Below are positions 45,069 to 45,942 of a stretch of 64,000 nt of DNA, piece by piece. The stretch spans positions 124,001-188,000 of the forward strand of contig CAMNAK010000001.1 in NCBI GenBank assembly GCA_946530965.1, read 5' to 3'. The DNA comes from an uncultured Candidatus Saccharibacteria bacterium. Its GTDB lineage: Bacteria > Patescibacteriota > Saccharimonadia > Saccharimonadales > Saccharimonadaceae. The position numbers were made by a program, and so were the translations under genes. The notes under the pieces are model-generated. The model was not told where the DNA came from. It searched no databases and saw only the letters and a program-made list of their open reading frames with translations. Position 1 is the stretch's first letter. Every line of letters starts with the position of its first letter.

Positions 45069-45313
45069 TTGCTTGTATTATATATTACTTTTAATTAATT
45101 CTTGAGTAGTGTTGCCCCTCGGCTACTATTTATTGCGATGATCGTCATCGGATAATGTTCATGCGCTCGAAAAATAGGGCGGGCTGAGATTGAAAAATCC
45201 TAGTAGAAGAATTTCGTTTGGGAATGATCGAATCAAAAGAAGACTTCATCGCACAATGGCAAGCTGCTTACGGCAATTAAGCTTATGAAGTCTAAGAATA
45301 ATGTGGTCTTATA

Positions 45314-45341
45314 ATATATATATATATATATATATATATAT
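45314..45341. repeat. (AT)14 dinucleotide microsatellite
   Basis: Uninterrupted AT repeat between TATAAT (45310-45315) and ATG at 45340. Confidence 0.95.
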
Positions 45342-45942
45342 GAAAGAAGAAAAGATTATTCGCCCAAACAAGAAAGAGCTTGAAATGCTCAGGCTTTTAT
45401 ATGATAAATTCTTTCATTTGTATGAAGAGATAAGATCTAAGGAGTTTCTAAAACTAGATGCCAGCATTAGATTTATGAAGTTGTCGAAAATGTTTGCTAT
45501 TTATAACGAAGCTCAGCTCTATCCGCCAATCAAGTATGTATTAGATGATTTAGATAAAATAAGGCCAAAATCCGAGAAGTTTATTGCGTTGAATTTATTT
45601 AGTTTTATTAGGAATGTTTTGGCGCATTATCCAGTTTTTGATAGCTGGAATGAAGTATACATAACAAAAAACCTGGCTACTTGGAGTGATAAAATTAAAA
45701 ATAAATCAATTCTAAGGTTTTTGGACGATTGCGAGAAGCTAGACGATTATAATAGAAATCCAAAATTTAGGATTTTTGACAACAAAAATAAAAAATTCGA
45801 ATACTTTGAAATTAATTTTCCGTCTGGCCTTAAAGACGATGACAAGGTTTATTTAAAAGATATAATTTCCGAAGAAGCAGGCATTAGATTTTGTACTATT
45901 TTTATGATGAAATATCTATCTATTCAACTTGAAGAAGACTAA
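45340..45942 (+). CDS. HEPN-domain-like protein
   Basis: 200 aa, helical, NLFSFIRNVLAHYPVFDSW has R-N-x3-H. ORF can also be opened from ATG 45301 through the repeat. Confidence 0.6.
   Translation: MKEEKIIRPNKKELEMLRLLYDKFFHLYEEIRSKEFLKLDASIRFMKLSKMFAIYNEAQLYPPIKYVLDDLDKIRPKSEKFIALNLFSFIRNVLAHYPVFDSWNEVYITKNLATWSDKIKNKSILRFLDDCEKLDDYNRNPKFRIFDNKNKKFEYFEINFPSGLKDDDKVYLKDIISEEAGIRFCTIFMMKYLSIQLEED

Follow-up and report, generated by a model that had tools for sequence, protein, structure and literature searches.

A perfect run of 14 AT units fills the space between a TATAAT hexamer and the start codon of a HEPN-like gene in the window (the whole 64,000-nucleotide stretch of saccharibacterial DNA analyzed here); its existence is confirmed, runs of this kind are rare, and its position is suggestive. 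Tentatively, we read it as a slippage-prone leader that would tune translation by its length, where the start of transcription, the slippage, and the effect on expression are what we infer from the arrangement. Beyond this one locus, contingency loci built on simple-sequence repeats (SSRs) very probably exist in the family, since the TA tracts of a sister genus, here called g3, include ON-frame as well as OFF-frame copies and differ in unit number between matched ones. As a novelty, the g3 loci are better supported than the tract in the window.

The (AT)14 tract

The sequence is as the earlier note had described it, leading from TATAAT at 45310 through 28 nt of AT into the ATG at 45340 (Table 1): the last AT of the hexamer opens the run, and the final AT unit, together with the following G, forms the start codon. 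TRF reports 45310-45341 as a single TA array of 16.5 copies with one indel, so that the TATAAT could be the mere imperfect edge of the tract. Markov models of order 1 to 3, fitted to the AT-rich region, predict between about 1e-8 and 1e-10 runs of this kind in 64 kb, and among other SSR types no further run within the window rises above thresholds. In the genome (997,113 bases, 99.4% complete), it is the sole case of an AT run of at least 9 units, and a duplicate or remnant of the DNA upstream of the HEPN-like gene is found nowhere else in it. Of the family's 295 genomes, 12, from 3 of its 61 genera, contain runs of at least 10 units; in the phylum sample, 6 of 382 genomes do. The tract thereby shows two hallmarks of SSR contingency loci: it is a perfect repeat of a short unit, much longer than chance would allow, and it is placed, between TATAAT 45310 and ATG 45340, where its length can alter expression.

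Table 1. Coordinates of the HEPN-like gene, its upstream features, and the tract loci of the sister genus.
Feature	Position	Strand	Description
HEPN-like gene	45340..45942	+	200 aa; RNVLAH at residues 91-96; start at ATG 45340 by homology
In-frame upstream extension MWSYN(IY)n	45301..45339	+	judged untranslated as part of the protein; absent from homologues
(AT)14 microsatellite	45314..45341	+	28 nt, perfect; fills the space from -10 box to start codon
TATAAT	45310..45315	+	candidate -10 box and register-breaking first edge of the repeat array (sequence, TRF)
g3 tract loci	L048-L080, L112-L120, L165-L169		tracts within signal-peptide coding sequence or between promoter elements

The HEPN-like protein, its start codon, and its neighborhood

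R91 and H96 of the RNxxxH motif are invariant in an alignment of 19 sequences, which upholds the earlier designation of the gene as HEPN-like; both residues also fit the conserved R-x4-6-H motif of the HEPN superfamily. Because the protein matches no HEPN profile in Pfam, PADLOC, or NCBIfam, it is named 'HEPN-like' only. Its AlphaFold2 model is mostly helical (mean pLDDT 84); a fold search of the PDB with this model yields nothing significant (MntA-HepT at E=7.9 only), and a sequence search of the PDB is uninformative. The product is probably of the nuclease type, with a role in defence or as a toxin.

Close copies are found neither in the genus nor in the phylum sample nor in phages, and a scan of genome contigs with the single sequence gives no match. 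Plasmids contain five distant matches, the first of them from Pseudoalteromonas (39% identity), and homologues at 27 loci in genome contigs are scattered widely, their hosts being Gammaproteobacteria, Bacillota, Bacteroidota, Chloroflexota, Campylobacterota, Methanosarcina, and one Peregrinibacterium. Within the phylum sample the gene is a singleton, inside an AT-rich island, and is judged to be horizontally acquired. For the Gammaproteobacteria, a vehicle suggests itself: their homologues L006, L084-L087, L090, L093, and L095 have a GTTATGC-type sequence upstream, and L006 is then followed by TAACAAACAAAGGC, as in integron attC sites; the gene may thus travel as an integron cassette in this group. 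On a Bacillus cereus plasmid, a Gabija gajA-helicase pair is immediately followed by a truncated HEPN-like copy with stops (L007:5001-5396).

At the 27 loci, which span many phyla, nearly all starts correspond to ATG 45340, give or take a few residues, and nearly all full-length homologues begin a few residues ahead of an (L)RPN motif. Translated from ATG 45340, the window protein has the same (L)RPN-proximal start, with about three extra residues. As the homologues start there and the upstream extension has no counterpart among them, we assign the start codon to ATG 45340; it is preceded by no Shine-Dalgarno (SD) motif, just as the earlier note had observed. In the 300 nt upstream of the homologues, AT runs do not exceed 9 nt, and the tract is thus a property of this copy, not of the protein family.

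The gene lies in a low-GC (33-37%), G-skewed island (36000-48500), which encodes an acyltransferase, a glycosyltransferase, LicD, a flippase-like protein, and an IspD-type cytidylyltransferase, with the HEPN-like cluster following them. On the minus strand, 44096-45068 holds a HEPN-type gene with a weak RiboL-PSP-HEPN match, which a frameshift in an A7/T7 run near 44450 divides in two; its ortholog in a related genome (G033, L109:1529-2500) is intact, with 323 aa and 90% DNA identity, and the conserved block around the gene ends at 44033 and 45096, as if moving as a unit. On the plus strand, 46281-47552 encodes a 423-aa protein of no matching family, whose DVRNILTH is an RNxxxH motif like that of HEPN; this is the third consecutive HEPN-like gene between 44.1 and 47.6 kb. 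In the window, Rfam identifies only a tRNA.

Candidate promoter and predicted leader

Promoter spacing was surveyed in 264 kb of the same genome (the window and ten stretches), with 177 ATG-start genes. TATAAT-like hexamers peak 6 to 9 nt before the ATG, where they are found in 16, 7, 5, and 5 genes, respectively (33 of 177, over a background of about 2 per spacing); ten genes have an exact TATAAT at spacing 6. A -10 box at this distance from the ATG is, as read from the spacing, the layout of leaderless mRNAs. SD-like motifs precede 84 of the 177 genes, about half. The HEPN-like gene has neither an SD nor leaderless spacing: its gap from TATAAT to ATG is 24 nt, all AT, and thus falls outside the norm set by the peak at 6-9 nt. 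A consensus scan detects no -35 element upstream of TATAAT 45310, nor is there a TGn extension before it; TGn is present in about 17 of the 28 listed leaderless-type promoters of this genome, as counted by eye. By motif, the case for a promoter at TATAAT 45310 is weak. If present, however, the promoter is fixed there, because TAnnnT is impossible in any register of pure (TA)n: the hexamer requires an A in second and a T in sixth place, and neither register provides both.

With the promoter at 45310, the leader would have a length of 2 x (n-5) nt, equal to 18 nt at n = 14. RNA folding predictions give no structure up to 11 units and a weak hairpin (-3.2 kcal/mol) at 14, and the forecast probability that the AUG is unpaired drops from 0.82 to 0.33 beyond 11 units. 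This predicted AU hairpin would form at the AUG only above n = 11. We expect the effect of tract length, acting through the leader, to be graded rather than on/off.

In the reading we favor, transcription would start about 6 nt past the fixed TATAAT, and the mRNA would carry an (AU)9 leader ahead of AUG 45340. Replication slippage would add or remove AT units, uncorrected given the apparent absence of MutS, and each unit would lengthen or shorten the leader by 2 nt. With 5 units, the AUG would coincide with the 5' end of the mRNA, as is common among the leaderless-type genes here; above about 11 units, a self-folded AU leader is predicted to mask the start codon. The repeat length would in this way gradually set the amount of the acquired HEPN-like protein per cell. 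This reading draws on the uniqueness of the tract in the genome, on its exact position between the TATAAT and the homology-supported ATG, on the departure from leaderless spacing, on the anchoring of a -10 box at 45310, on the folding forecast, on the MutS search, and on the TA-tract loci of g3. Against it stand the possible edge nature of the TATAAT, the lack of -35 and TGn, the weakness of the hairpin, the confinement of the tract to this copy of a gene that is itself a singleton, and the fact that the switches of g3 work on secreted proteins via frameshift or promoter spacing, not via leader length; FISUMP, the family of those proteins, is also without a match in the window genome.

Predicted slippage, with or without a selected role

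Dinucleotide repeats become unstable when mismatch repair is lost. A search for MutS (PF00488) was negative in all nine family genomes tested, which include that of the window (controls were positive in 11 of 14), so that slippage at (AT)14 would be left unrepaired. The same observation favors a neutral microsatellite, in which a five-unit leaderless TATAAT-ATATAT-ATG, or some other AT-rich leader, would have expanded by slippage ahead of a dispensable, acquired gene and with no selected role; we hold this to be as likely as leader-length tuning. In keeping with it, the gene is a singleton acquisition in an AT-rich island, the neighboring HEPN-type gene is already frameshifted at its A7 run, which suggests weak constraint, and further AT tracts of the family (L066-L069, L075) occupy positions without an obvious role. 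Neutral expansion is harder to reconcile with a single such tract in a genome that offers mutational opportunity everywhere, and with the exact placement of this tract between -10 and ATG.

TA-tract loci in the sister genus

AT or TA runs of at least 8 units are present in 13 of 60 g3 genomes, and in G450 at about 13 places; the loci considered here come from G202, G450, G650, G432, G444, G459, G467, G469, G473, G632, G659, G662, and G679. The tracts are (TA)8-12 in length, with 14-15 units in G459. Most of those fetched sit in the first codons of secreted-protein genes, the typical layout being TATAAT-N6-ATG, followed by 8-14 codons and then by (TA)n, which reads as (YI)n inside the signal peptide; here, the frame is kept at every third repeat number only. 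Eight copies are ON (L048, L060, L064, L073, L078, L079, L114, L117) and ten are OFF (L049, L050, L055, L056, L058, L063, L070, L119, L165, L166); in two of the latter, L056 and L070, about 600 codons would be open if the tract were one unit shorter. Unit numbers differ between copies with the same flanks (L053/L057, L048/L049, L055/L060). Other tracts are located in promoters: two paralogues in G650 (L169) have TTG-(AT)10 or (AT)12-TACAAT, and an ortholog in two species (L167/L168, proteins 64% identical) has TTGACT-(TA)9 or (TA)12-ATTGT between flanks that are nearly the same. FISUMP domains occur in several of the secreted proteins; this family accounts for 14 to 45 matched stretches per genome in the three g3 genomes searched, and has no match in the window genome. 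A relative also shows a weak match to a CPR pilin; this match, the genome size, the number of genera in the phylum sample, and the missing MutS together point to a Patescibacterium as the organism of the window.

In their sequence, the g3 loci look like standard phase-variable anatomy, and like a large undescribed set of surface genes; a literature search, with most subscription papers outside its scope, found no description of SSR phase variation in Saccharibacteria or Patescibacteria (CPR). They lend credibility to a role of the tract in the window, although gene type and tract position differ, and repeat-length effects at (AT)14 are plausible by analogy, given contingency-type TA tracts in the family and the missing MutS. 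A more comprehensive reading, which we regard as rather unlikely, is that this MutS-less family would use dinucleotide contingency loci as a working strategy, with (TA)n switching surface proteins in g3 and the window tract working like a rheostat, by which translation of a HEPN-like defence gene would shift from leaderless to leadered and back.

Comparison with known systems

In uspA2 of Moraxella catarrhalis, an (AGAT)n repeat in the transcribed leader has a graded effect on the expression of a surface protein. The window tract resembles it in lying upstream of the start codon, in what is here a predicted leader; the tetranucleotide unit and the surface protein set uspA2 apart. In the DCM8/DAM3 methyltransferase of Metamycoplasma hominis, a coding (TA)6-12 tract acts by frameshift, and repeat numbers are mixed within strains (PMC10305163). 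This is likewise a TA tract in a small-genome organism, and the window tract would also yield (IY)n if translated, but it has a conserved start codon at its 3' end; the signal-peptide loci of g3 are the closer match. A translational switch of this type, which the earlier note had offered as an alternative, would have the HEPN-like gene start at ATG 45301 and read MWSYN(IY)n into the protein, with unit changes switching the frame. The frame is indeed open from 45301 through the tract into ATG 45340, so that this part of the proposal stands, and frameshifting is the apparent mode of the g3 loci as well as of DCM8/DAM3. The homologues, however, begin at the equivalent of ATG 45340 and lead us to reject the (IY)n reading; the sequence 6-9 nt upstream of ATG 45301 contains no -10 box, and there is no clear SD; and ATG 45340 is in frame at every repeat length, so that the frame cannot be switched off and the tract is no frameshift switch. 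We therefore consider translational switching very unlikely here.

In Haemophilus influenzae hifA/hifB, a (TA)9-11 tract separates the -35 and -10 elements of divergent pilin promoters (discussed in PMC2651432), and slippage changes the spacing of expression signals. The two tracts share perfect TA units, a similar length, and a location in the 5' control region, but that of the window lies between the -10 and the start codon of the HEPN-like gene, and the g3 loci L167-L169 are closer to the hif arrangement. A switch through the distance between promoter elements has its anatomical precedent in these three loci, yet it is highly improbable for the window tract, which comes after the only TAnnnT hexamer, ends at the start codon, and has nothing downstream that is usable as a -10 box. 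Hardly any weight falls on an assembly or sequencing artefact in the repeat length, for although dinucleotide runs are error-prone and some related contigs break there, any ordinary read spans 28 nt, the flanks are unique, and the contig has 532 kb. Repeat-mediated variation in a Patescibacterium (CPR) is known from a gene of Gracilibacterium BD1-5, where hypervariable 9-mer repeats in the coding sequence give rise to PTD tripeptides (PMC6851277); there, however, the outcome is sequence diversification, not expression switching.

Significance

If leader-length tuning is true, repeat length would adjust an acquired HEPN-like gene, probably one of defence or toxicity, through the distance between the 5' end of the mRNA and the AUG, and would do so in bacteria where translation of leaderless mRNAs is frequent. 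The anatomy of the g3 loci, for its part, indicates that very small bacteria, probably epibionts and devoid of mismatch repair, may switch surface proteins via TA-tract slippage, and such switching would bear on varied contact with hosts and phages.
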